Shown here: one piece after another, positions 13,483-26,580 of the stretch
How the letters are laid out: each line of letters starts with the position of its first letter
Numbering within the stretch: position 1 is the first letter of the stretch
NCBI GenBank assembly: GCA_020027535.1
Contig: JAHRAK010000125.1
Coordinates: forward strand, 1-37,697
Length of the DNA stretch: 37,697 nt
Source: Nitrospirales bacterium
Lineage (GTDB): Bacteria > Nitrospirota > Nitrospiria > Nitrospirales > UBA8639
Reading direction: 5' to 3'
Made by a program: the position numbers and the translations under genes
The notes under the pieces: generated by a model
The model's input: only the letters and a program-made list of their open reading frames with translations
Database searches by the model: none
What the model was told of the DNA's origin: nothing

Positions 13483-13517
13483 ACGTTCGGAACGCGTGTC
13501 CTATTCCTTAGTTGCCC

Positions 13518-15029
13518 ATGGCTAAAGCTCTTGCCATTCTTGGAACGGGCTCCGACGTCGGAAAGAGTCTTGTCACGGCGGGACTGGGACGGATCTTCCA
13601 TCGTGCCGGCATTCGCGTGGCTCCGTTCAAATCTCAAAACATGGCTCTCAATTCGTTCGTGACCGTGGAGGGCGGGGAGATGGGCCGCGCTCAAGTCCTT
13701 CAAGCGCAGGGATGTGGACTTTCTCCGCACGTGGACATGAATCCCATCCTCCTTAAACCGGAAGCGGACCAGCGCTCGCAGGTGGTCGTGCAGGGGAAAG
13801 TGTGGCGAAGTCAGGATGCCGGAAGCTATTTCGACTCCAAAACGGAGCTGTTTCACTATGTACGGGAGAGTTACGAACGGTTGGCTGCGCAATACGAGTT
13901 GATCATCATCGAGGGTGCGGGCAGCGCGGCTGAGGTGAATTTATGTGATCGGGATATCGTCAATTGGCCGGTGGTTCAGATGGCCGATGCCAGGGTCATC
14001 CTCGTGGCGGATATCGACCGGGGTGGGGTCTTCGCCCAGGTGATCGGCACCCTGGACTTGCTGAAGCCTCACGAACGGGAACGGGTGCTCGGCGTGGTGA
14101 TCAACAAGTTTCGCGGGGATCGGCGTCTCTTCGATGACGGCGTGGCCATTATCGAGAAGCGAACGGGAATTTCCGTTCTTGGCGTACTTCCGTTTTTACG
14201 CGACCTTGTGCTCGATCAAGAAGATAGCGTGACAATCGAATCGGGTTCGACCGTGACCCCCTTTTCATCGGAGACGGTCAACGTTGCGGTCATCCTGTTG
14301 CCTCGTATGAGCAACTTTACGGATTTTAACGCGTTGGCCGCGGAATCCGACATCACGTTGCGGTATGCCAAAGTTCCCCAGGACGTTGTTGACGCGGACG
14401 TCATTATCCTTCCGGGTAGTAAACAGACGATTCAGGATCTTCACGACGTCAAAGAAAAAGGGTTTGTCCCGATGATGGCCTCACACGTTCGGGCCGGGCG
14501 GGAGGTCGTTGGCCTATGCGGAGGATTTCAAATGCTGGGAGGACGGATTGACGACCCTCATAAAGCGGAAGGTGGTGGGCAAACGGAAGGTCTTCGACTT
14601 TTGCCGATCGACACCGAACTGCATTGTGAAAAACAGACCGTACAGGTGCAGGCGAATCCCTTGATGCCCGGAGTGTCCGGCGCGGAAATGGTTCGGGGCT
14701 ATGAAATTCACGTGGGGATCACCTCTCGTCGTCAGGGCGCCCCGTGTTTTCGAATTCTTGACGAGAGAGGAGACAGAGAAGACGGTGCCGTTTCCCCGGA
14801 TGGGTTGGTGTGGGGCACCTATATTCACGGCGTGTTCGATGATCCATCCTTTCGTCGCGCCTGGATCAATCGTGTTCGGATCAGAAAAGGGTTGACTCCG
14901 AATGATATTGCGGACTCCAGGAACGTGACCCGACGACTGACGGCGGCCCTTGATGATTGGGCCGATCACGTTGAACGCCACCTCGATAAGAAGCTCGTCT
15001 TTCAGGCGTTACGTCTTCCTATCGCTTGA
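13518..15029 (+). CDS. cobQ: Cobyric acid synthase
   Basis: This glutamine-dependent enzyme amidates four side chains of adenosylcobyrinic diamide to give cobyric acid. The N-terminal dethiobiotin-synthetase-like ATPase domain has LGTGSDVGKS, FKSQNMALNS and IIEGAGSAAEVNL. The C-terminal glutaminase domain has the triad cysteine in GLCGGFQMLGG and the His in YIHGVFDDP. The length of 503 is typical. ATG 13518 is preferred over the TTG at 13512 used in the track. Only 35 bases separate it from the esterase, so it may lack its own promoter. The riboswitch lies downstream, not upstream. Confidence 0.94.
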   Translation: MAKALAILGTGSDVGKSLVTAGLGRIFHRAGIRVAPFKSQNMALNSFVTVEGGEMGRAQVLQAQGCGLSPHVDMNPILLKPEADQRSQVVVQGKVWRSQDAGSYFDSKTELFHYVRESYERLAAQYELIIIEGAGSAAEVNLCDRDIVNWPVVQMADARVILVADIDRGGVFAQVIGTLDLLKPHERERVLGVVINKFRGDRRLFDDGVAIIEKRTGISVLGVLPFLRDLVLDQEDSVTIESGSTVTPFSSETVNVAVILLPRMSNFTDFNALAAESDITLRYAKVPQDVVDADVIILPGSKQTIQDLHDVKEKGFVPMMASHVRAGREVVGLCGGFQMLGGRIDDPHKAEGGGQTEGLRLLPIDTELHCEKQTVQVQANPLMPGVSGAEMVRGYEIHVGITSRRQGAPCFRILDERGDREDGAVSPDGLVWGTYIHGVFDDPSFRRAWINRVRIRKGLTPNDIADSRNVTRRLTAALDDWADHVERHLDKKLVFQALRLPIA

Positions 15030-15073
15030 CAAACGAATCCCGGGTTCCCTATAAGTCTTTGCAACATCAGATA

Positions 15074-15230
15074 TGGTACGCACGGGTGCAGGGAAGAAGG
15101 TGCAACTCCTTCGCGGTCCCGCCGCTGTAACCGGAAACGAACCCCGCGGATGCCACTGTCAACGATTGATTTTGACGGGAAGGTGCGGGAAGTAGGTTAG
15201 GATCCGGAAGCCAGAAGACCTACCCGGGCT
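15074..15230 (+). promoter_or_regulatory. Cobalamin riboswitch upstream of btuF
   Basis: Conserved aptamer pieces appear in order: GGTGCAACTCC, CGCGGTCCCGCCGCTGTAAC, GCCACTG, GGGAAGGTGCGGG and the B12 box GCCAGAAGACCTACC (about 15210-15224). It lies between cobQ and the BtuFCD import operon, the expected setting for repression by adenosylcobalamin. The boundaries are approximate. Confidence 0.93.
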
Positions 15231-15232
15231 GA

Positions 15233-15277
15233 GAATCCTGTTTTCGTCGTTCTGAATCGGACTGACGAGCAGGATTC
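15233..15277 (+). promoter_or_regulatory. Expression-platform hairpin of the first B12 riboswitch
   Basis: GAATCCTG (15233-15240) is complementary to CAGGATTC (15270-15277), with inner pairs CGTC/GACG and GTTC/GGAC around a TGAATC loop. It sits between the B12 box and the btuF ribosome-binding site. No long T-run follows, so control by translation or a longer-range alternative pairing is more likely than simple intrinsic termination. The mechanism is inference. Confidence 0.6.
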
Positions 15278-15316
15278 ACGACTTTCGATCCCTCGTGGGC
15301 TGGGGAGCGGGTGAGG

Positions 15317-16411
15317 ATGAAGACGCGGGAACAATCCTCAGGGTCGTTTAGGCCTTGGGGATTTTTTATTTTGTCAGGCGTTCGGCTTGTCCGGGATTGT
15401 CGGCAGACGCAAGGGAGGAAATGGTCCCTTCGTGTTGTCTGTATCCTGACGATGACCGTTCTGGTTGTCCCCGTCTGTGAACCGCTATTTGGTTTTTCCG
15501 ATCACTCCACGACCATGAAACGTCGCCAACAGGGAATTCTCACCGGCATGCCGTTCATGGCCAACGTGGCACCTCGCACCTTCGTCGATGATCTTGGCCG
15601 TAAGCTCTATCTTGCTCAACCACCGAAGCGCATCGTGTCGCTGGCTCCGAGTATCACGGAAATGTTGTTTGCTCTTGGCCTGGATCAGGAAATCGTCGGC
15701 GTGACGGAATTTTGCAACTATCCTCCTGCTGCATTGGAAAAACCGAAAGTCGGGTATGCCCAACCAAATTTGGAATCCATTGTTGCGCTCAGGCCGGAAC
15801 TCATTGTCGCGCCGAAATCTTTTTTGAGAGTCGACTTGCTCAATCGGTTGGAACAATTGAAGATCCCGACGCTGCTTCTCGATCCCCAAACCGTTGAAGA
15901 TATTTTGCGCCACATTCAACTGTTGGGCCGCATGGTGGGGCGAGTCCCCGAATCCATCAAGGTGACGGAAAACATTCGCAAGCAAATGACCGTGCTGACC
16001 GCTCAATTGGTCGGGCGTCCACGCCCTACGCTGTTATTCGTGATCAATACCGATCCCCTCATTACGGTCGGTCCGGGAAGCTATATTCATCAATTGATCG
16101 AACTGGCCGGGGCAAGAAATGCCGCCGAACACGCGGGGACCGCTTATCCGCGTCTGAGCATCGAGGAAGTGCTCCGGCAAAACCCCGAGTTTTTGCTGTT
16201 CCCGATGGGTCGTTTCGAGGGAATTCCGCAAGCCGAGCAGGATCAATGGCGGCGGTGGACGTCTCTTGAAGCGGTCAAACGGAATCAATTCGTGCACATC
16301 GACAGTGACATCCTCAATAGACCGGGGCCGCGAGTGATCGAAGCCCTGGAAGTGCTCATTACCATACTCCACCCTGACGCGGTTCCCTCCGCGGCGGGGC
16401 AGGAGGAATGA
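15317..16411 (+). CDS. btuF: Cobalamin ABC transporter, periplasmic binding protein
   Basis: This is a class III substrate-binding protein (BtuF/TroA-like). It starts its mature core at PPKRIVSLAPSITEMLFALGL and continues with VVGVTEFCNYPP-type, PNLESIVALRPELIV and GPGSYIHQLIELAGARNAA blocks. ATG 15317 has GGGGAG nine bases upstream; the GTG at 15311 is too close to it. The N-terminus is long and basic before a hydrophobic export segment (LRVVCILTMTVLVVPVC). No canonical lipobox is clear. It binds corrinoids in the periplasm and delivers them to BtuCD. btuC follows after 10 bases. A ferric-siderophore role is possible by family, but the riboswitch argues for B12. Confidence 0.9.
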   Translation: MKTREQSSGSFRPWGFFILSGVRLVRDCRQTQGRKWSLRVVCILTMTVLVVPVCEPLFGFSDHSTTMKRRQQGILTGMPFMANVAPRTFVDDLGRKLYLAQPPKRIVSLAPSITEMLFALGLDQEIVGVTEFCNYPPAALEKPKVGYAQPNLESIVALRPELIVAPKSFLRVDLLNRLEQLKIPTLLLDPQTVEDILRHIQLLGRMVGRVPESIKVTENIRKQMTVLTAQLVGRPRPTLLFVINTDPLITVGPGSYIHQLIELAGARNAAEHAGTAYPRLSIEEVLRQNPEFLLFPMGRFEGIPQAEQDQWRRWTSLEAVKRNQFVHIDSDILNRPGPRVIEALEVLITILHPDAVPSAAGQEE

Positions 16412-16421
16412 GCACACGGCC

Positions 16422-17588
16422 ATGGCTTCCGTCACCTCTCATTCAGGAAAACCCCATGCCGGCGTTACGTCAGCCGTGCCGGCGCCGGCTTTTCTCTCCC
16501 GGGCCGAACCTGCCGCTTCTGCAGAAGGGTTTCGGCCTGCGCAAGCGGTTGCCACACTTTCACCCATAAAATGGATCGGCGTGTCCGGCGGGTTGGGGGC
16601 GTTGGCCCTCGTGGCCTTCGTGGCTTGTCTGGGATTCGGGACCGAGACCATTTCGTTTGCGAACGTTGCGGTGCTCTTGGCTCAGGGGCCGTTTGCCGAA
16701 GGAGCGACGCGAAACGTGCCTCACCACATTATTCTCTGGCAGGTCAGAGTCCCCAGGGTCTTGCTTGCCTTTATGGTCGGCGGAAGCCTGGCTGCCGTGG
16801 GGGCGTCGCTTCAGGCGTTGCTTCGGAACCCCTTGGCCGATCCCTACGTCATCGGTATTTCGAGCGGGGCCGCACTCGGCGCGGCCATGGCCGTCCTGTT
16901 TGGCGTCGGTTTTTCCATTCTGAGTTTGTCTGTTTTGCCGTTTTCCGCCTTTCTTGGTGCGTTGCTTGCTCTCCTCATTGTCTATCGCATTGCCGTGTCC
17001 TATGGGAGTTTTTCGATTCATACGCTCTTGTTGGGCGGAGTGGTCCTGAATGCGATTTTTTCGGCGCTCATCCTGTTTCTGACGAGTTTGGCCGACCCGT
17101 ATAAGGCCTCGGGGATGTATGCGTGGCTTATGGGCTCGTTAACGGGCCCGGATTTCCAAACCGTATTGGTTCTGGCCGTGTATCTGCTCTTCGGGGTGGC
17201 TGTCCTGGTTTCCCAAGCGTCTGCCTTGAACCTGCTCACGCTTGGAGAAGAGGCGGCTCGTTCGCTGGGGGTCGAGGTTGAACGCGTGAAGCGCGTCCTC
17301 TTTGCCGCGGCCGCGCTATTGACGGGATCGGTCGTGGCCTTTAGCGGCTTGATCGGATTTGTCGGACTCATCGTGCCCCATGCGGTTCGCCTGGTGTTCG
17401 GCGCCGACCATCGGCTGTTGTTGATTGCGTCGGGGATTGTCGGGGGCATCTTCCTCATGCTGGCGGATACCTTGGCCAGGACGCTGTTGAGCCCGGCGGA
17501 AATTCCCGTGGGCGTCGTGACGGCCCTGGTCGGAGGACCGCTCTTTTTATATTTGCTGATTCAGCAACGCAGGAGAATCGTCTCGTGA
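16422..17588 (+). CDS. btuC: Cobalamin ABC transporter permease (FecCD family)
   Basis: The protein is a polytopic FecCD/BtuC permease of about ten helices, with the characteristic VRVPRVLLAFMVGGSLAAVGASLQALLRNPLADPYVIG block and the C-terminal GFVGLIVPHAVRLVFGADHR block that contacts the ATPase. It moves corrinoid across the inner membrane. Before the first helix is an unusual Ala/Pro-rich stretch of about 48 residues. No later in-frame Met offers a shorter start, though a GTG start is possible. The stop overlaps the btuD start. Confidence 0.92.
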   Translation: MASVTSHSGKPHAGVTSAVPAPAFLSRAEPAASAEGFRPAQAVATLSPIKWIGVSGGLGALALVAFVACLGFGTETISFANVAVLLAQGPFAEGATRNVPHHIILWQVRVPRVLLAFMVGGSLAAVGASLQALLRNPLADPYVIGISSGAALGAAMAVLFGVGFSILSLSVLPFSAFLGALLALLIVYRIAVSYGSFSIHTLLLGGVVLNAIFSALILFLTSLADPYKASGMYAWLMGSLTGPDFQTVLVLAVYLLFGVAVLVSQASALNLLTLGEEAARSLGVEVERVKRVLFAAAALLTGSVVAFSGLIGFVGLIVPHAVRLVFGADHRLLLIASGIVGGIFLMLADTLARTLLSPAEIPVGVVTALVGGPLFLYLLIQQRRRIVS

Positions 17589-18415
17589 GCGAACGTCCGG
17601 AAACGCCGGCTCTTTCGCCTCTGAGGCTCACCGATGTGACGTTCGGGTTCGGACGAAAGGAAACGGCCGCTCAGTCTCCGGTTTTGAAAAACCTCTCGCT
17701 CACGATTGCGTCCGGGGAAGTGCTGGGCATCCTGGGTCCCAATGGCTCCGGGAAAAGTACCCTGCTGAAAATACTCATGAGAGTCCTGGTTCCTCAACAG
17801 GGGAAGGTTGAAATGTTTGGGCAACCCCATGCTGCGTTTTCCCAGGCCGAGATTTCCCGTCACGTGGCCTTCGTTCCTCAAGAAACCCAGCAGGCCTTTC
17901 CCTTTACGATCAATGAAATGGTGTTGATGGGTCGATATCCCCACCACAATCGAGCGTGGGCTCTGGGATGGGAAGGAGCACAGGATCGTGCCGTCGCGAT
18001 GCAGGCGATGAGAGATCTGGACGTATCCCACCTGGGGACCCGGCTGATTACCAACGTCTCAGGCGGGGAGCGACAACGAGCCGTGATTGCCCGGGCTTTG
18101 GCCCAGGAGCCGGAGATCCTGCTGTTGGATGAACCGACGGCCTTTCTGGACCTCCATCACCAATTGGATATTGCGAGAATCATTCGCCGTTTGAATCGAG
18201 AACGTGGGTTGACCGTCGTGCTTGTATCCCATGATCTGAATTTAGCCAGTCAATACTGCGATCGATTGGTGCTGTTACGGGAAGGGGAGATTGTGACCAT
18301 GGGTTCACCGGAAGAAGTCGTTGCCGGGGAATCTCTGGAACGGGTCTATGGCTGTCCTGTTCTCCTTGATCAACACCCGCAAACCGGCAAGCCAAGAGTC
18401 ACCTTGCCGGTTTGA
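17585..18415 (+). CDS. btuD: Cobalamin ABC transporter ATP-binding protein
   Basis: The ABC ATPase has Walker A GPNGSGKST (about 51-59), Q-loop FVPQETQQAFPF, signature VSGGERQRAVIARAL, Walker B EILLLDEPTAFLDL and the switch His in VLVSHDLN. It powers BtuC. The GTG start lies inside the btuC stop (GTGA overlap), implying coupled translation. The last codons and stop fall inside a perfect 12-bp inverted repeat. Length 276 is normal. Confidence 0.93.
   Translation: MSERPETPALSPLRLTDVTFGFGRKETAAQSPVLKNLSLTIASGEVLGILGPNGSGKSTLLKILMRVLVPQQGKVEMFGQPHAAFSQAEISRHVAFVPQETQQAFPFTINEMVLMGRYPHHNRAWALGWEGAQDRAVAMQAMRDLDVSHLGTRLITNVSGGERQRAVIARALAQEPEILLLDEPTAFLDLHHQLDIARIIRRLNRERGLTVVLVSHDLNLASQYCDRLVLLREGEIVTMGSPEEVVAGESLERVYGCPVLLDQHPQTGKPRVTLPV
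18380..18414 (+). repeat. Perfect 12-bp hairpin spanning the end of btuD
   Basis: CAAACCGGCAAG (18380-18391) and CTTGCCGGTTTG (18403-18414) form an uninterrupted stem with an 11-base loop. Because it is followed by A7 rather than T on the coding strand, it is not a standard terminator for btuD. It may stabilise the btuFCD mRNA 3' end. Confidence 0.7.
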
Positions 18416-18502
18416 AAAAAACGTAACGGCAATATATCCAAGTGGCCGATGTGGTGACGGCCTTGAAACGTTCACCGCACGTATTACACATTCAACAATT
18501 CA

Positions 18503-18668
18503 GGAGGCGTTCCTAAGGACAAAACAACGACAGCGACGGGGAAGATGGTGCAAATCCATCACGGTGCCGCCACTGTAAGCGGGGAATGATCTGCAAGAGA
18601 CCACTGTGAACGGAACGTTCATGGGAAGGTGCAGGGTAGTGATGATCCGCGAGTCAGGAGACCCAACT
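18503..18668 (+). promoter_or_regulatory. Cobalamin riboswitch upstream of btuB
   Basis: The order GATGGTGCAAATCCATCACGG, TGCCGCCACTGTAAGCGGGG, GACCACTG, GGGAAGGTGCAGGG and the B12 box GAGTCAGGAGACCC (about 18651-18664) matches the cobalamin aptamer. The btuB start codon is about 50 bases beyond the B12 box, with GGGAGG six bases before ATG. Boundaries are approximate. The region 18416-18502 between btuD and the aptamer shows no gene and likely holds the promoter. Confidence 0.93.
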
Positions 18669-18714
18669 GCCGTTGACCTCTGGACCCACCCTTCGAGTCA
18701 AAGGGAGGTAGCGT

Positions 18715-20703
18715 ATGTTTCATCGGTTCGTTTTTACGTATCTTCTTCTCCACGTATTTTTGATTCCCGCATTCTCTTTCGGTGAATCGCCCCCGGCTTC
18801 TCCGGACGTCCAGACCCTGGACACCGTAGTCGTGAGCGCCACAAAAACGCCGATTCTCCTTCGTCAGGTGACGAGTGCGGTCGAGGTCCTGACCGAAAAA
18901 GATCTCAAACGCCGCCAGGTCAAGACGTTGGTGGAGGCTCTTCGTCTTTCACCGGGCCTGGCGGTTTTGCAAAACGGCGGCCCGGGCGGCACGGCAAACG
19001 TACGGATTCGAGGAGGAAGTTCCAGACAAACTCTGGTTCTCATCGATGGAGCGATCGTGAATAGCGCGACGTCGGGAGATTTTAATTTTGCCCACTTGAC
19101 GACCGACAATATTGAAAAAATCGAAATCGTGCGGGGCGCCCAGAGCACACTGTGGGGGGCGGATGCCATGGGTGGAGTGATCAACATCACGACGAAACGG
19201 GGACGTGGGCCCTTGAAGGCCGGTGCCTTCTTCGAATACGGATCGTTCAATACGTTGCGGGAAGGCGGGCACGTTTCCGGTAGCAAGGGGTCGGTTGACT
19301 TTTCCGTAGCTCTCTCCCGGTGGGATACGACGGGCATCTCGCAGATCAACGCTCGAAGAGGGGCTACCGAACGCGATGCCTATCGGAATTGGCAGGTTTC
19401 TTCCCGCATCGGCATGACCCTGCCTTCCGAGGGCCGGCTCGACTTCAATTTTCGATGGTGGAACGGCTCGATCAATGTCGACAGCAGTTCCGGTCCCTCG
19501 GACGTCATCAACTACAGAAATGAGAGCGAGCGATTCATCTTCAGCGGAACCTATCGGCAACCGCTGACCGATTGGTGGACTCACGCGTTGACGCTTTCCC
19601 GGTCCCAAAATTCTCTTCTGGATGATCCGGGAACGTTACAGCGCAATCTGGTGACCGGAATGACGAGAACGCCCTTTGGTTCCGGGAATCCCAATGAAAT
19701 ACGCGTCGTGGCGAATCGAATCGAAAGCCAACACGACTTTCGCCTCAATCAATACGTCACGTTGACCGCGGGCTATCAATTTCGTGAGCAGACGGGAGAG
19801 AACGAGGGAGGGTTCAGTCCGTTCCCGGCGAAGATTATCTCGTCTCATGCCGGTTTCGGCCAAATGCAATTCAGTCTGTTTGATCGGGTTCTTGCTACTG
19901 CCGGGGTTCGGCACGACCGTTTTAACACATTTGGCGATGCCACGACGTATCGCGTCACCGGAGGATATCTGGTCAAGGAAACGAACACGAAAATACGCAG
20001 CAGCTATGCCACGGGATTCCGGGCTCCAACGGTCAATGAATTGTTCTGGCCGGACTTCGGCAATCCCGATGTGAAGCCGGAACAAAGTCAAAGTTTCGAC
20101 GTGGGTGTGGATCAGACTTTGTTTGCCGATAGGGTGACCATCAGCGGCGGCTATTTCTGGAATCGGTATCGCGATCTCATCCAAACCATTCAGAGTGCAG
20201 CGGTGTGTGGGACAGGCCCTTTTGGAGCCAATTATTGTCCCATCAACGTGGCTTCGGCTAAATCGCAAGGGTGGGAGGGTATGGTGAACGTTGTCCTGGT
20301 TCAAGAACAACCGTGGATGAAACGATTGGAACTGAAAGGACAATACACCATGACCCTGACCCGTGATCTTATGACCGGTACCAGATTGCGTCGTTGGCCG
20401 GTCGATCAAGCGAGTCTGAGTCTGTATTATCAACCAGTGGCTCCCCTCACCATGATCCTTGATGTTCGTTTTGTGGGGTCACAATTCAATGACAGGGAAA
20501 ATACCCAGCGTGTCGACTCGTTTGAAGTAGTCAATTTGGCCGTGAACTATGATCTCTCCGATCAATTCCAAGCCTACGTCCGGGTGGATAATGTTTTTGA
20601 CAAAGAGTATGAAGAAATATTGTTTTTCGGCACACCGGGACGCTCGGTTTTCGGCGGAATTCGAGCGAATTTTGATCTGCCGTTTGGGTCAAGTATGCAG
20701 TAG
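18715..20703 (+). CDS. btuB: TonB-dependent outer-membrane cobalamin receptor
   Basis: This 662-residue protein has a signal peptide (MFHRFVFTYLLLHVFLIPAFSFG) and a TonB box-like LDTVVVSATK (about 35-44). Next is a plug domain with TLVEALRLSPGLAVLQNGG, VRIRGGSSRQTLVLIDG and IEIVRGAQSTLWGADAMGGVINI. A 22-strand-type barrel completes it, ending with VRVDNVFDKEYEEILFFGTPGRSVFGGI. It takes corrinoids across the outer membrane using TonB energy. The extreme C-terminus is GSSMQ rather than an aromatic residue, a minor oddity. The upstream riboswitch supports the B12 substrate. Confidence 0.93.
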   Translation: MFHRFVFTYLLLHVFLIPAFSFGESPPASPDVQTLDTVVVSATKTPILLRQVTSAVEVLTEKDLKRRQVKTLVEALRLSPGLAVLQNGGPGGTANVRIRGGSSRQTLVLIDGAIVNSATSGDFNFAHLTTDNIEKIEIVRGAQSTLWGADAMGGVINITTKRGRGPLKAGAFFEYGSFNTLREGGHVSGSKGSVDFSVALSRWDTTGISQINARRGATERDAYRNWQVSSRIGMTLPSEGRLDFNFRWWNGSINVDSSSGPSDVINYRNESERFIFSGTYRQPLTDWWTHALTLSRSQNSLLDDPGTLQRNLVTGMTRTPFGSGNPNEIRVVANRIESQHDFRLNQYVTLTAGYQFREQTGENEGGFSPFPAKIISSHAGFGQMQFSLFDRVLATAGVRHDRFNTFGDATTYRVTGGYLVKETNTKIRSSYATGFRAPTVNELFWPDFGNPDVKPEQSQSFDVGVDQTLFADRVTISGGYFWNRYRDLIQTIQSAAVCGTGPFGANYCPINVASAKSQGWEGMVNVVLVQEQPWMKRLELKGQYTMTLTRDLMTGTRLRRWPVDQASLSLYYQPVAPLTMILDVRFVGSQFNDRENTQRVDSFEVVNLAVNYDLSDQFQAYVRVDNVFDKEYEEILFFGTPGRSVFGGIRANFDLPFGSSMQ

Positions 20704-20779: not shown

Positions 20780-21361
20780 ATGCGGATCAGTAAAGTCTAT
20801 ACCAGGTCGGGCGATGCCGGGAAAACCCGCTTGGCCGGCGGGCAGGAAGTGTGGAAGGATTCCTTGCGCGTGGAAGCCTATGGCACGGTCGATGAGTTGA
20901 ATTCGGTTATCGGCATTGCCAGGGCGTTGAATGCGGATCAAGCGGATGGCGTGAAGACCAAGTCAACTCTTGAAGAGCACCTGCGGTGGATTCAAAACAA
21001 GTTGTTCGATCTGGGAGGGATCCTTGCCACGGCTCCGGGAGAGACCTTCAAGAACATGCCGGTGGTGACGGCCGATCACGTGGTCCGGTTGGAACGTCTG
21101 ATTGATGCCTGTCAGGAAGACCTGGAGCCGTTAAAAGAGTTTATCCTGCCGGGAGGCGGAACGGTGTCCGGGTTTTTGCACCAGGCCCGAACCATTTGCC
21201 GGCGTGCCGAGCGCCTCTGTGTGAGCTTGTCTCGCGAAGAAGATGTTCCCGCCGAGCTTGTGCGGTTCTTGAACCGGTTGAGTGACGTCCTGTTCGTGTT
21301 GGCGCGCTGGGTTGCGAAAACGCAAGGGGAACCCGAGTATTTATGGGAACGGGAAACCTGA
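20780..21361 (+). CDS. pduO: Cob(I)alamin adenosyltransferase, PduO type
   Basis: The protein transfers the adenosyl group of ATP to reduced corrinoid. The PduO/MMAB family marker VYTRSGDAGKTRLAGG is at residues 6-21, followed by VEAYGTVDELNSVIGIA. The C-terminal helices have ARTICRRAERLCVSLS and FLNRLSDVLFVLARW. Its 193 residues form the usual helical trimer unit. It lies 76 bases after btuB and probably shares its transcript. The symbol reflects family type only; a role in propanediol use is not implied, and it more likely serves corrinoid assimilation. Confidence 0.92.
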   Translation: MRISKVYTRSGDAGKTRLAGGQEVWKDSLRVEAYGTVDELNSVIGIARALNADQADGVKTKSTLEEHLRWIQNKLFDLGGILATAPGETFKNMPVVTADHVVRLERLIDACQEDLEPLKEFILPGGGTVSGFLHQARTICRRAERLCVSLSREEDVPAELVRFLNRLSDVLFVLARWVAKTQGEPEYLWERET

Positions 21362-21428
21362 GATGCGTTGTCAACGTTTCGCGTTCGACTCCCGTTTGTC
21401 CTCCGTCCTGAGTCCTGAGTCGTTTTCC

Positions 21429-21962
21429 ATGAATGCCGGTGACGGTTCTTCTCATCTGTGTTTCGTTCTTGGAGGTGCGCGTTCCGGGAAAAGCCGTCTG
21501 GCCTTCACGTTGGCGGGACAGGCTTTGCCCAGGGCCTTTGTCGCGACGGGAGAGGCGGGTGATGAGGAGATGGCCGCGCGCATTCGAAAGCATCGACAGG
21601 ATCGTGACCCATCCTGGGAAACACAGGAAATTCCCATTGACGTGAGCGGATGGCTTAAAGCCCATGGGGCGGCGTATAAGACGGTGGTGATCGATTGCCT
21701 GACCTTGTGGTTATCGAATCTTCTGGGTAGCGGGGTTCAGTCGTCACAAATCCCTACCTGTACGGATGAGTTGATGCAATCGGCTCGAATGGTTCCCAGC
21801 ACGGTGGTGTTGGTGAGTAATGAAGTGGGCCTGGGCATTGTGCCCGGTGACGCCGTGACACGGCAATTTCGAGACCTTGCGGGAGCCATGAATCAACGCG
21901 TTGCCGCGGCGGCCGATGCCGTCTATTTTTCCGTGAGCGGTCTTCCCATGAAATTAAAATAG
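21429..21962 (+). CDS. cobU: Adenosylcobinamide kinase / adenosylcobinamide-phosphate guanylyltransferase
   Basis: CobU phosphorylates adenosylcobinamide and converts it to the GDP-derivative. The P-loop is GGARSGKS (15-22), followed by AFVATGEAGDEEMAARI, the VIDCLTLWLSNLL block and VSNEVGLGIVP. ATG 21429 gives 177 residues, the family length. The track start at 21282 runs through the adenosyltransferase gene; an ATG at 21363 just after that gene's stop would add 22 poorly conserved residues. No strong ribosome-binding site settles the choice. cobT begins 15 bases after its stop. Confidence 0.92.
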   Translation: MNAGDGSSHLCFVLGGARSGKSRLAFTLAGQALPRAFVATGEAGDEEMAARIRKHRQDRDPSWETQEIPIDVSGWLKAHGAAYKTVVIDCLTLWLSNLLGSGVQSSQIPTCTDELMQSARMVPSTVVLVSNEVGLGIVPGDAVTRQFRDLAGAMNQRVAAAADAVYFSVSGLPMKLK

Positions 21963-21977
21963 CGGTCTTGTCATAAC

Positions 21978-23048
21978 ATGAGCGAAGATGACATTGATCT
22001 GATCCTTCCGGCTTTGAGGCTTCCCAACGAGGACGTTCGGTTGCAGGCGCAAGCCCGGCTCGATTCGCTCACCAAACCGGTGGGGAGTTTGGGACGACTC
22101 GAGGACGTGGCCGCACAGTACCTTGCGATTACCGGAAATGTTTCGGCTCTACAACTCGACCCCGTCGTGTTTGTGTTGGCGGCTGACCACGGCGTGGCGG
22201 CTGAAGATGTGAGCGCGTATCCGCAATCCGTGACCGCGCAAATGGTGAAGAATTTCGTCCACGGCGGGGCCGCTGTGAACGTACTGGCTCGCCATGCCGG
22301 AGCATCCCTGTGTTTGGTGGACATGGGAGTGGCTGAAGATCTCGGGGCATATGCCGGTCTTCTGGATCGTAAGATTGCCTTTGGAACCAATAATTTCCTT
22401 CGTGAACCGGCGATGTCCCCTGAGCAGGCGTTGCAGTCGATTCAGGTTGGGATGGATTTGGCAAAAGCCGCATGCGCGGACGGGAAAAATCTCATTGCCG
22501 TCGGGGAAATGGGTATCGGCAATACGACGGCGAGTGCCGCCATCGTTTCGGTGCTGACCGGACAAAGCGTGGAAGCGGTAACGGGCCGGGGAACCGGCGT
22601 CGATGATCAAACGTTGAAGCGTAAAATTGCCGTTATTGAGCGGGCTCTTGCGTTGCATCACCCGTCTCCTTCCGATGCCATTGAAGTCTTGACGAAAATT
22701 GGGGGATTCGAAATCGGCGGGATGGCCGGTCTGATGCTCGGGGCTGCGATCTGTCACGTGCCGGTCGTGCTGGACGGCTTTATTACGGGAGCGAGTGCGC
22801 TGCTCGCCGTGGCGCTGGAACCCCGGTGCCGGGAGTATCTCATCGCGTCACACCTGTCACGGGAGCCCGGACACCGGATTGTACTCGATCACCTGGAGTT
22901 TGATCCGTTGTTGGATTTGCGGATGCGGCTTGGGGAGGGGACCGGCGCCTGTTTGGCTGTCACGCTCATTCACGCTGCCTTGAAAATCTATCGTGAAATG
23001 GCCACGTTTGAGGAAGCACGGGTTTCCGGTTCGCTGCCCCAATCATGA
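21978..23048 (+). CDS. cobT: Nicotinate-nucleotide-dimethylbenzimidazole phosphoribosyltransferase
   Basis: CobT activates the lower ligand base to alpha-ribazole phosphate. Diagnostic blocks are LDSLTKPVGSLGRLEDVA, VLAADHGVAAEDVSAYP, QMVKNFVHGGAAVNVLAR and GEMGIGNTTASAAI. The catalytic glutamate region is RLGEGTGACLA near the C-terminus. The 356-residue length is typical. It sits between cobU and cobS in the nucleotide-loop assembly operon. Which base it uses cannot be read from sequence. Confidence 0.95.
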   Translation: MSEDDIDLILPALRLPNEDVRLQAQARLDSLTKPVGSLGRLEDVAAQYLAITGNVSALQLDPVVFVLAADHGVAAEDVSAYPQSVTAQMVKNFVHGGAAVNVLARHAGASLCLVDMGVAEDLGAYAGLLDRKIAFGTNNFLREPAMSPEQALQSIQVGMDLAKAACADGKNLIAVGEMGIGNTTASAAIVSVLTGQSVEAVTGRGTGVDDQTLKRKIAVIERALALHHPSPSDAIEVLTKIGGFEIGGMAGLMLGAAICHVPVVLDGFITGASALLAVALEPRCREYLIASHLSREPGHRIVLDHLEFDPLLDLRMRLGEGTGACLAVTLIHAALKIYREMATFEEARVSGSLPQS

Positions 23049-23067
23049 GTCCGGAGCCTGGACGTCC

Positions 23068-23832
23068 ATGATCAGATCCTCCCTGTTGGCGTGGCATTTT
23101 CTCACGATCATCCCTCTTTGCAAAGCTTCGCACGTTCAGCCCATCCCGCGTGAACTGGCGTCCTCCATGCAATGGTACCCTGTGGTCGGTCTGATCATTG
23201 GAGGAATACTTGGCGCGGGCGATGTCTTATTCAACATGGTCTTGACGCCGGATATGACGGCGCTGCTGGTCCTGTGCGTCCTGGTTGTCCTGACCGGAGG
23301 TCTGCACCAGGACGGATTAGCCGATACCATTGACGGGTTAGGCAAGCGAGGAAGTCTGTCAGAGCGGTTAGCCGTCATGAAGGATGGGAGCATTGGCGCC
23401 TTGGGTGCGACCGGCTTGATCTTGGCGCTTGGGTTACGCTTTGAAGGCATCCTTCACCTGCCTGCTCCTGATCGCATCCTTCTGTTGTTATGCATGCCGG
23501 TGATCGGGAAATGGACCATGGTGGTGAGTACGTTCGGCAGTTCGCATGGTCGGCCGGGTGGTGGCCTTGCTTCAGACTTTTTTAATGAAATCCGGCTGAG
23601 AGACGTGCTGTGGGCCACCGTCTGGGCCGGAGTGTTTCTTTGTGCAACCCTCGGATGGCAGGCGGGCGGGTTGCTCCTGGGGCTCGGCGTCGTCGTGGCA
23701 CGCGGCATGGTTTTCATGTGTTCTCGTGTTTTCGGCGGGATCACGGGAGACGTGCTTGGCGCGATCAATGAAGTGACGGAGATCCTGTTTCTGATTACCG
23801 CCCCGATGATCCTGATGCTGGTGGCATTCTGA
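23068..23832 (+). CDS. cobS: Adenosylcobinamide-GDP ribazoletransferase (cobalamin synthase)
   Basis: CobS is the integral membrane enzyme that joins adenosylcobinamide-GDP with alpha-ribazole or its phosphate. It has LTIIPL near the N-terminus and the hallmark GGLHQDGLADTIDGLG with acidic catalytic residues, then MKDGSIGALGATGLIL. Several hydrophobic helices follow. ATG 23068 with a GGAG 11 bases upstream gives 254 residues, as expected. The track start at 22993 overlaps cobT and adds 25 unrelated residues. Confidence 0.93.
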   Translation: MIRSSLLAWHFLTIIPLCKASHVQPIPRELASSMQWYPVVGLIIGGILGAGDVLFNMVLTPDMTALLVLCVLVVLTGGLHQDGLADTIDGLGKRGSLSERLAVMKDGSIGALGATGLILALGLRFEGILHLPAPDRILLLLCMPVIGKWTMVVSTFGSSHGRPGGGLASDFFNEIRLRDVLWATVWAGVFLCATLGWQAGGLLLGLGVVVARGMVFMCSRVFGGITGDVLGAINEVTEILFLITAPMILMLVAF

Positions 23833-23835
23833 TTC

Positions 23836-24033
23836 GTGAAACGTAATCTCAAGAAAACGTGCGGGCGATGCGGCTGTGCGTTCACGTGCGGGCTGTATGG
23901 GTGCTGGTGTGCCGGCGTGCAGGTTTCCGATGCCCAATACGCGATCATTGCCGAACGGTTCGCGGATTGTCTGTGCCCGTCATGCTTGAAGGCCCTATGT
24001 GCGGGGGGCTTGCTCTCAATGTCGGCTGATTGA
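23836..24033 (+). CDS. Small cysteine-rich CWC-type protein
   Basis: This 65-residue protein contains ten cysteines. The pattern is CGRCGCAFTCG...GCWCAGV...CLCPSCLKALC, which matches the small bacterial Cys-rich CWC family (named for its Cys-Trp-Cys motif). The cysteine spacing suggests a metal site, most likely zinc, or redox chemistry; function is not established to my knowledge. It uses a GTG start three bases after cobS, and its stop overlaps a possible TTG start of cbiB, so it is embedded in the B12 operon. Because of its size, it could easily be missed by gene callers. Confidence 0.82.
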   Translation: MKRNLKKTCGRCGCAFTCGLYGCWCAGVQVSDAQYAIIAERFADCLCPSCLKALCAGGLLSMSAD

Positions 24034-24047
24034 ACGGTTTTGAGCGT

Positions 24048-24905
24048 ATGATCGCCGTCAATCTTTTGGCAGCGTGTGTCCTTGACGGGTTACTTGGAGA
24101 TCCCCGGTGGATGCCGCATCCGGTCAGGTTGATAGGTGCATTCATCAACTGGTGTGAGCCGATGATCAGAAACCGGTTCACCTCCGGTCAAAGCCGGCGC
24201 ATTGCGGGACTCCTCCTTGTCATGTTCGTCCCGGGGTTCAGCTTCTTGGCGGCATGGGGTTCGTTGCACGTGGCCTTTCTGGTGCATCCCTGGCTTGGCA
24301 ACCTTCTGTGGATTGTGTTGGGATACACGACGTTGGCGGCGAAGGATTTAGCGAAGCACGCGTGGGAGGTCTATGACCGTCTTCACCCCGGATCGTTAGG
24401 GGAGGCTCGTCAAGCCGTTTCGCTCATGGTCGGACGAGAGACCGACCGGTTGACGGAAACCGAGATCGCCGGAGCCACCATCGAGAGCGTGGCCGAAAAT
24501 ACGTCAGATGGTGTGATTGCGCCATTGTTCTATCTTGTCGTTGGTGGTCCGCCATTGGCATTAGCTTATAAAGCCATCAATACCTTGGATTCAATGATCG
24601 GGTATCAGGACGCATTGTACCGCGATATCGGATGGGCATCGGCCAAACTCGATGATCTGGCGAATGCCATTCCGGCTCGACTCAGCGCGGGGTTGCTGGT
24701 ACTGGCGTCTTCCTTTCGCCATGCCGCCGTTGCCAACGTTTGGAGCATCTATCGACGAGATTGCGCCAAGCATGCCAGTCCCAACAGCGGTCATCCCGAG
24801 GCGGCCATGGCCGGTGCGTTGGGAGTTCTGTTGGGCGGGCCGGGTGTCTACGGCGGCATTCGAGTCGAACGCCCCCAATTCGGTGATCCGACGAATGTGC
24901 CGTAA
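24048..24905 (+). CDS. cbiB: Adenosylcobinamide-phosphate synthase CbiB, stopped before its last helix
   Basis: CbiB (also called CobD in the Pseudomonas naming) attaches aminopropanol phosphate to adenosylcobyric acid at the inner membrane. Visible blocks are LLGDPRWMPHPVRLIG, VSLMVGRETDRLTETEIAGATIESVAENTSDGVIAPLFY and the ALGVLLGGPGVYGGIRVERPQFGD region. ATG 24048 gives the normal MIAVNLLAACVLDGLLGD start; the track uses TTG 24030. A TAA at 24903 ends the ORF, yet the same frame continues for 32 more sense codons as a typical last CbiB helix. The gene is either truncated, read through, or contains a sequence error. Confidence 0.85.
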   Translation: MIAVNLLAACVLDGLLGDPRWMPHPVRLIGAFINWCEPMIRNRFTSGQSRRIAGLLLVMFVPGFSFLAAWGSLHVAFLVHPWLGNLLWIVLGYTTLAAKDLAKHAWEVYDRLHPGSLGEARQAVSLMVGRETDRLTETEIAGATIESVAENTSDGVIAPLFYLVVGGPPLALAYKAINTLDSMIGYQDALYRDIGWASAKLDDLANAIPARLSAGLLVLASSFRHAAVANVWSIYRRDCAKHASPNSGHPEAAMAGALGVLLGGPGVYGGIRVERPQFGDPTNVP

Positions 24906-25004
24906 TCCCGACATATTCCCATGGCGATTGAATTGATGTGGATTTCATTCGGACTGGCCACCGTGCTTGGTGTGGGCTTCACGACGTTGTGGAACGCTCT
25001 TTAA
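24906..25004 (+). pseudogene. In-frame continuation of CbiB after the TAA stop
   Basis: After the stop, the same frame encodes SRHIPMAIELMWISFGLAT followed by VLGVGFTTLWNAL and a second TAA at 25002. The I-x-x-A-I-x-L-M-W pattern plus a hydrophobic helix is how CbiB proteins usually end. A single change of the TAA at 24903-24905 (for example from GAA or CAA) would restore a protein of the ordinary length. The cobD start would then overlap this end. Confidence 0.65.
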
Positions 25005-26107
25005 GCCATGGCGGGAACGTGTATCACGCAGCCCGAGCGTCATCTCGGGACGCATTGGAGTTTTGTGATTTCAGCGCCAGTATCAACCCTCTCGGCGTTC
25101 CTCTTGCTGCACGTCGTGTCTTGCAAACCGCCATTCGTAAGATTCAACATTACCCGGACCCCGAGGGCCGGGCCCTTCTTGAAGCCATTGCCAAACGCCA
25201 CGGTATTTCCCCGGATAACGTGTTGCTGGGGAATGGAACGGTCGAGCTGATTTATGCCATTCCTCCCGCCTTGAACATCAGACACGGGTTGATCATTGGT
25301 CCGACCTTTTCCGAATATGAACGGGTATTGACGTTGGCACATGCTCGCGTGACATGTGTCCTGGCACGCTTGGAAGACCATTGTCGCCCCCCCATTCCGG
25401 AGGCGCTGGCAACAGTACAACAACCGCCCGCTACCGGGGCCGGGAAGCGCCCTCTGCCGATTGATGCCGTGTTCCTGTGTAATCCGAACAGTCCGACCGG
25501 TCAGAGCGTCTCGCGAAATAGCGTTTATCGCATCTTGGAGGAGGTCAAACGACACGGCGGATGCCTGATTGTGGATGAGACGTTCGTGGAATTCTGCGAG
25601 GAAAAGTCCGTTATCCGCCGGGCTGTTTCCGATGATTCGCTGCTGGTGCTCAGAAGTTTTACCAAGTTCTACGGGATTCCAGGCCTTCGGATCGGATATG
25701 CCGTCGGGACGGAAAAGAGGGTTCAAGCTATCAGGAATCGGCTTCCACCCTGGTCCGTGAATACGTTGGCCCAGGAAGCAGCCTGGGCCTGTTTGCAGGA
25801 CCATCGTTACAGAAAAAGGACTTTGCTGTTTTTCCAAAAAGAGCGTCCGGTCTTCAGACGGGCGCTTGAGCGGATTCCAGGGTTTCGGGTATATCCTTCA
25901 TCTGCAAATTTTTTTCTGGTAGAGTTGCCCAGGCCGCTGACAAGTCATAAGGTACAGGCTGCGTTAATGGAGCACGGCTTTCTTGTCAGAGATTGCTCGA
26001 CTTATCCCGGGCTTGATGAACGAATGCTTCGTTTCGCCGTGAGAACGTCAAACGAAAATGCTCGGTTGGTGAAACACTTGCAGCACGTGGTGAATGCGCA
26101 ACAATGA
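24989..26107 (+). CDS. cobD: Threonine-phosphate decarboxylase-like PLP enzyme
   Basis: The protein opens with SHGGNVYHAA and EFCDFSASINPLGVP, the signature of CobD/CobC, which makes (R)-1-amino-2-propanol phosphate for CbiB. The fold is a class I/II aminotransferase related to histidinol-phosphate aminotransferase. VFLCNPNSPTGQ, LIVDETFVEFCE and the PLP lysine in LRSFTKFYGIPGLRIGY are clear. GTG 24989 starts four residues before SHGG; GTG 24938 is the track start. No ribosome-binding site is obvious for either, and the start overlaps the extended cbiB frame. HisC activity is a less likely alternative because of the operon. Confidence 0.88.
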   Translation: MERSLSHGGNVYHAARASSRDALEFCDFSASINPLGVPLAARRVLQTAIRKIQHYPDPEGRALLEAIAKRHGISPDNVLLGNGTVELIYAIPPALNIRHGLIIGPTFSEYERVLTLAHARVTCVLARLEDHCRPPIPEALATVQQPPATGAGKRPLPIDAVFLCNPNSPTGQSVSRNSVYRILEEVKRHGGCLIVDETFVEFCEEKSVIRRAVSDDSLLVLRSFTKFYGIPGLRIGYAVGTEKRVQAIRNRLPPWSVNTLAQEAAWACLQDHRYRKRTLLFFQKERPVFRRALERIPGFRVYPSSANFFLVELPRPLTSHKVQAALMEHGFLVRDCSTYPGLDERMLRFAVRTSNENARLVKHLQHVVNAQQ

Positions 26108-26580
26108 AAATTCGGAACGTGATCGGGTTTGGGATTCTTGGTGTTCTTCTCGTCGTGGGTTTCGTGTTTTCCCGTCCCCAAGGGGGAACGCCCGATGTGC
26201 CGGATGATCCCGAGGCGCACGAAGCGCTGGAATTGGTGCGTTCCCATCCTGCTCGAAATGCCCCGACGTTGGAGGATGCGATCAATCAGTACGTCGAAGA
26301 GTTGAACGCGCAGGGAACGTCCCTGCATCAAGGTGAGTGGCAGGTGGGAAAAGAACGCCCCGGCGTCTATGCGGTCAGGATGCTGGTTCGTGAGAAAGGG
26401 TTTAATGAATGGATTGAACGGGAGTTTGCCTGGCGGGTCACGTTAAAGGATAAGACCATCAGGGTGATTTCTCTGCCCGCCATTCACTTTATGCCGTTTC
26501 ATGAGTTGCCGCCGTTGCCGCACCAGGATCAGATATCAGGGACACTCATGGAGCCTCCGGTGGAAAAGCGACTTGGATGA
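26104..26580 (+). CDS. Hypothetical membrane-anchored protein at the end of the B12 operon
   Basis: I do not recognise this 158-residue protein. An N-terminal hydrophobic helix (VIGFGILGVLLVVGFVF, about 6-22) is followed by a polar linker (DVPDDPEAHEA) and a soluble domain of about 120 residues that ends Pro-rich. It probably faces the periplasm. The ATG overlaps the cobD stop (ATGA), so it is translationally coupled to B12 genes. Its 3' end overlaps the convergent Rieske gene by 35 bases. Confidence 0.7.
   Translation: MKIRNVIGFGILGVLLVVGFVFSRPQGGTPDVPDDPEAHEALELVRSHPARNAPTLEDAINQYVEELNAQGTSLHQGEWQVGKERPGVYAVRMLVREKGFNEWIEREFAWRVTLKDKTIRVISLPAIHFMPFHELPPLPHQDQISGTLMEPPVEKRLG

Follow-up and report, generated by a model that had tools for sequence, protein, structure and literature searches.

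A premature stop before the last transmembrane helix of CbiB in a Nitrospirales genome with a B12 gene set apparently limited to salvage

In the 37,697-nt stretch of Nitrospirales DNA analysed here (the window), which corresponds to contig C121 in the 2.2 Mb draft genome (G000) of an uncultured, Nitrospira-like bacterium, cbiB is interrupted by an in-frame TAA that ends its product just short of the final membrane helix. The stop probably represents a real and recent single-base nonsense mutation (CAA to TAA, codon 286) that has cut the gene in one genome and whose consequences may be tolerated.

The cbiB frame opens at ATG 24048 and, beyond the premature stop, continues through 32 sense codons encoding SRHIPMAIELMWISFGLATVLGVGFTTLWNAL to a second in-frame TAA at 25002-25004, exactly as counted in the original prediction, whose coordinates and statements for an in-frame stop just before the final CbiB helix were correct (Table 1). 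The truncated product passes both curated cut-offs (338.8 versus 34.4 bits for PF03186; TIGR00380 as tabulated) and matches positions 1-267 of the 282 in the PF03186 profile, while reading through the stop extends the match to 282 of 282. The tail also lines up residue by residue with the CbiB C-terminus in all ten congeners that carry the gene. Because the profile reaches its last position through the stop and the tail aligns with these ten sequences, the continuation is not a chance open frame, and its description as the usual CbiB ending holds. The position of cbiB between cobS and cobD is the same as in relatives. In its scores and operon place the gene therefore resembles other members of the CbiB/CobD adenosylcobinamide-phosphate synthases (PF03186, TIGR00380), from which it differs in missing the last helix.

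Table 1. Positions of B12-related features in the window and the evidence for each.
Feature	Position	Strand	Evidence
cobQ/cbiP (cobyric acid synthase), intact	13512..15029	+	comparison with relatives; profile match
cobalamin riboswitch before btuF	15025..15241	+	RF00174, 97 bits
btuF-btuC-btuD corrinoid importer, intact	15311..18415	+	comparison with relatives; names from predicted proteins and upstream riboswitch
cobalamin riboswitch before btuB	18491..18684	+	RF00174, 94 bits
btuB-like TonB-dependent receptor, intact	18715..20703	+	comparison with relatives; name inferred from sequence and place after cobalamin riboswitch
corrinoid adenosyltransferase (PduO type), cobU, cobT, cobS, intact; salvage route bypassing CbiB	20780..23832	+	comparison with relatives; profile match
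cbiB (adenosylcobinamide-phosphate synthase), cut to 285 aa by in-frame TAA	24048..24905	+	PF03186, E=3e-101; TIGR00380, 236 bits versus cut-off 165.9
premature TAA stop	24903..24905	+	aligned codon CAA, CAG or CAT in 10 of 10 congeners with CbiB
32 further codons in the cbiB frame, encoding the last transmembrane helix, and ancestral stop TAA	24906..25004	+	frame; AlphaFold2 helix 289-317
possible restart ORF, same frame as cbiB, ATG, 27 aa	24921..25004	+	sequence; putative
cobD (L-threonine-phosphate decarboxylase), GTG start, overlaps old cbiB end	24989..26107	+	TIGR01140, 320.8 bits, over cut-off; start position

An AlphaFold2 model computed from the read-through protein and 13 relatives (mean pLDDT 79.3, pTM 0.81) indicates what the truncation removes. 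The final helix (residues 289-317) belongs to the most confidently modelled regions, with a pLDDT of about 92 for most of its length, and in the predicted structure it is removed entirely by the stop. All CbiB C-termini that were read carry such a tail, and the truncated protein lacks the full length, with a terminal membrane helix, found in all relatives examined. Of the 318 residues, 285 remain, and the invariant columns of the 14-sequence alignment all lie before the stop except M297, so that the catalytic residues are probably kept while the membrane bundle would be incomplete. CbiB enzymes join aminopropanol phosphate to adenosylcobyric acid; the truncated product is probably inactive or unstable, and the retained sequence makes some residual activity possible. 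Searches of the PDB by sequence and by fold found no CbiB structure.

The stop is not shared with relatives. CbiB was found in 36 of the 49 family genomes searched and in 11 of the 14 genomes of the genus; the internal stop is unique to G000 among the 36, with no internal stop in the CbiB of the other 35. The nearest CbiB is that of 'Nitrospira sp. bin75', whose best-matching segment agrees at 85% of its residues, and the other close matches come from Nitrospira or Nitrospirales MAGs; bin75 and related MAGs are presumably sponge-associated, and we take the host lineage to be probable sponge symbionts. Among the ten CbiB-bearing congeners, the stop aligns with CAA (seven), CAG (one) or CAT (two), and all ten keep the last helix and terminate at the corresponding end. 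In a FastTree tree G000 lies next to G012 and G001, each of which has CAT, and the sequences with CAA or CAG fall outside this group, making a change from CAA to TAA by one transition the simplest history; on this history a single C-to-T change would suffice to explain the stop. Intact orthologues in relatives and a stop accounted for by one change are features expected of a pseudogene formed by nonsense mutation. We also considered a naturally short CbiB as the normal form, and rejected it: among the C-termini of 39 other distinct CbiB proteins, a few of which came from other phyla, none is short and none ends naturally at GDPTNVP.

Sequence comparison also bears on the age of the change. Before the stop, cbiB of G000 has a dN/dS of 0.15-0.24 relative to congeners, and the intact gene of G001 has 0.18-0.25. 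Of the 32 tail residues 4 are private to G000, compared with 13 of the 285 before the stop (Fisher p=0.08), and G010, whose gene is intact, likewise has four private tail residues; long-standing decay is thus not clearly indicated by either measure. Neither a frameshift nor a further stop was found in G000 cbiB or its tail, and the 31 other listed genes of the window are intact when compared with relatives. Given that the remainder of cbiB, the tail and the other compared genes are all intact, the stop is either recent or an error, and a tail that looks recently coding fits both equally.

An error is the second most likely of four readings and in our judgement an unlikely one. It holds that the consensus carries a mistake from sequencing or assembly, or a variant from a minority strain, and that CbiB is intact in the population, as could be suspected of a single draft genome in 140 contigs in which constraint is normal across the remaining gene and the tail and none of the other window genes compared is broken. 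In one assembled genome, a wrong base or a mixture of strains would leave the same picture. Consensus substitutions are, however, rare in assembled contigs, and loss of cbiB has precedents in the genus. The original prediction had offered a recent nonsense mutation, a sequencing error or readthrough; we favour the first, regard the second as less likely and, with the stop unique to this genome, consider the third unlikely.

The third-ranked reading, which we regard as improbable, is that truncated CbiB remains functional as a short or split membrane enzyme, either on its own or paired with a peptide of 27 residues whose translation restarts at ATG 24921. This in-frame ATG lies 15 nt past the stop, and all invariant columns but one precede the stop, but inspection of the sequence reveals no obvious ribosome-binding site ahead of the ATG, naturally short forms are lacking among the 39 other distinct CbiBs, and the methionine in this column is common to several congeners and so is no new adaptation. 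Natural splitting of CbiB in this species, with the restarted peptide giving the last helix, is barely credible. Least likely of the four readings is that the TAA is read through, by programming or by suppression, to yield full-length CbiB. This is highly improbable even with the tail intact and in frame, as the stop occurs in no relative, TAA serves as the ordinary stop of several other window genes, no UAA-reading tRNA (anticodon TTA) is present among the 36 tRNAs found (an incomplete set from which several isotypes are missing), and the site context is TAA-T. In E. coli, TAA is read through less than the other stops, and termination improves when a T follows (PMC11126739).

If the stop is a real nonsense mutation, its effects may extend to the next gene. 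In relatives cobD overlaps the final 13 coding bases of cbiB, and in G000 it starts within the continuation, as had been proposed, at GTG 24989, where the sibling G012 has ATG. The new stop lies 83 nt before this start, and no clear ribosome-binding site is seen in the sequence ahead of 24989. With ribosomes halting 83 nt short and no clear site for a fresh start, the coupling of cobD to cbiB is probably weakened, and the upstream stop may lower translation of cobD through a polar effect. After cobD, at 26104-26580 (+), lies a gene for a 158-residue protein with 84-89% identity in congeners and no Pfam or NCBIfam match.

The pathway context suggests how a truncated CbiB could be tolerated. CbiC/CobH, which is required in both ring-making routes, was found in none of the 49 family genomes, and CobJ/CbiH was over its cut-off in none of the 14 genomes of the genus. 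The pair by which a de novo cobamide producer is recognised (CbiC/CobH and CbiH/CobJ) is therefore missing, and the Nitrospira relatives of this family appear unable to build the corrin ring de novo, even though their late B12 cluster looks full. The view that all other B12 genes are intact stands for those of the window when compared with relatives, but they have no matching pathway for the corrin ring in this organism; what the original prediction missed is that the genus appears to make no corrin ring and that CbiB most likely serves salvage only, being losable as congeners show. Remodelling by CbiZ or CbiR was considered as a reason to keep CbiB and discarded, both being absent from the genus, with CbiZ found in other genera of the family. 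Because the corrin ring is not made and CbiZ and CbiR are absent, CbiB most likely serves here only the assimilation of cobyric-acid-type corrinoids. B12 itself is probably needed, since MetH is present in all 14 genomes of the genus.

From this gene content a course of events can be proposed for the favoured nonsense mutation. A C-to-T change at codon 286 would end the cbiB product just before the last transmembrane helix, and ribosomes stopping early would leave cobD, formerly overlapped by the end of cbiB, less translated. CbiB and CobD would be needed only for cobyric-acid-type corrinoids; cobalamin and cobinamide would still enter via BtuBFCD, and imported corrinoids would be finished by the adenosyltransferase (ATR), CobU, CobT and CobS. 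CbiB can thus be bypassed by imported cobalamin, or by cobinamide finished by CobU, CobT and CobS, and its loss would be nutritionally tolerable because the corrin ring is not made in this family and this salvage bypass is available.

The pattern of gene loss in the genus provides the precedents. CbiB occurs in 11 of the 14 genomes and CobS and CobQ in 12 each. In the closed genome of the congener G013, the locus (G013:C1:1972001-1992000) keeps btuB, cobU, cobT and cobS, while CbiB and CobQ are absent from the genome and no cobD follows cobS, so that this species is apparently a cobinamide-only salvager. G007 has lost CobQ, CbiB and CobS, and G002 has CobQ without CbiB and CobS, although at 90% completeness its losses are less certain. 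The stop in G000 is most likely an early step of gene loss along the same course as in these congeners. Taken alone, it would be a routine case of an ordinary broken gene; in context, it would be one step in the erosion of B12 salvage across a lineage whose members are probably sponge symbionts, ranging from a full late pathway in most species through a cobinamide-only set in one to importer dependence in another. Because corrin-ring genes are absent, annotation of a 'complete B12 operon' in this family does not mean B12 synthesis.

Related patterns have been described elsewhere. A Nitrospira culture (NS4) with a similarly partial cobamide gene set was proposed to be partner-dependent in the manner of the Black Queen hypothesis (PMC12542776), and the partial set, the retained corrinoid importer and a presumed producer partner are common to both cases; here, however, the affected salvage-branch gene is still in place and carries a single stop. 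The cobinamide salvagers defined in PMC6461909 likewise have nucleotide-loop genes without corrin-ring genes, whereas the present lineage has in addition retained cobQ, cbiB and cobD and could, before the stop, have salvaged cobyric-acid-type precursors. Finally, between cobS and cbiB in the window, at 23833-24030 (+), lies a gene for a small cysteine-rich protein of the CWC family (PF14375), which is also found after cobS in G013, the closed genome that lost cbiB.
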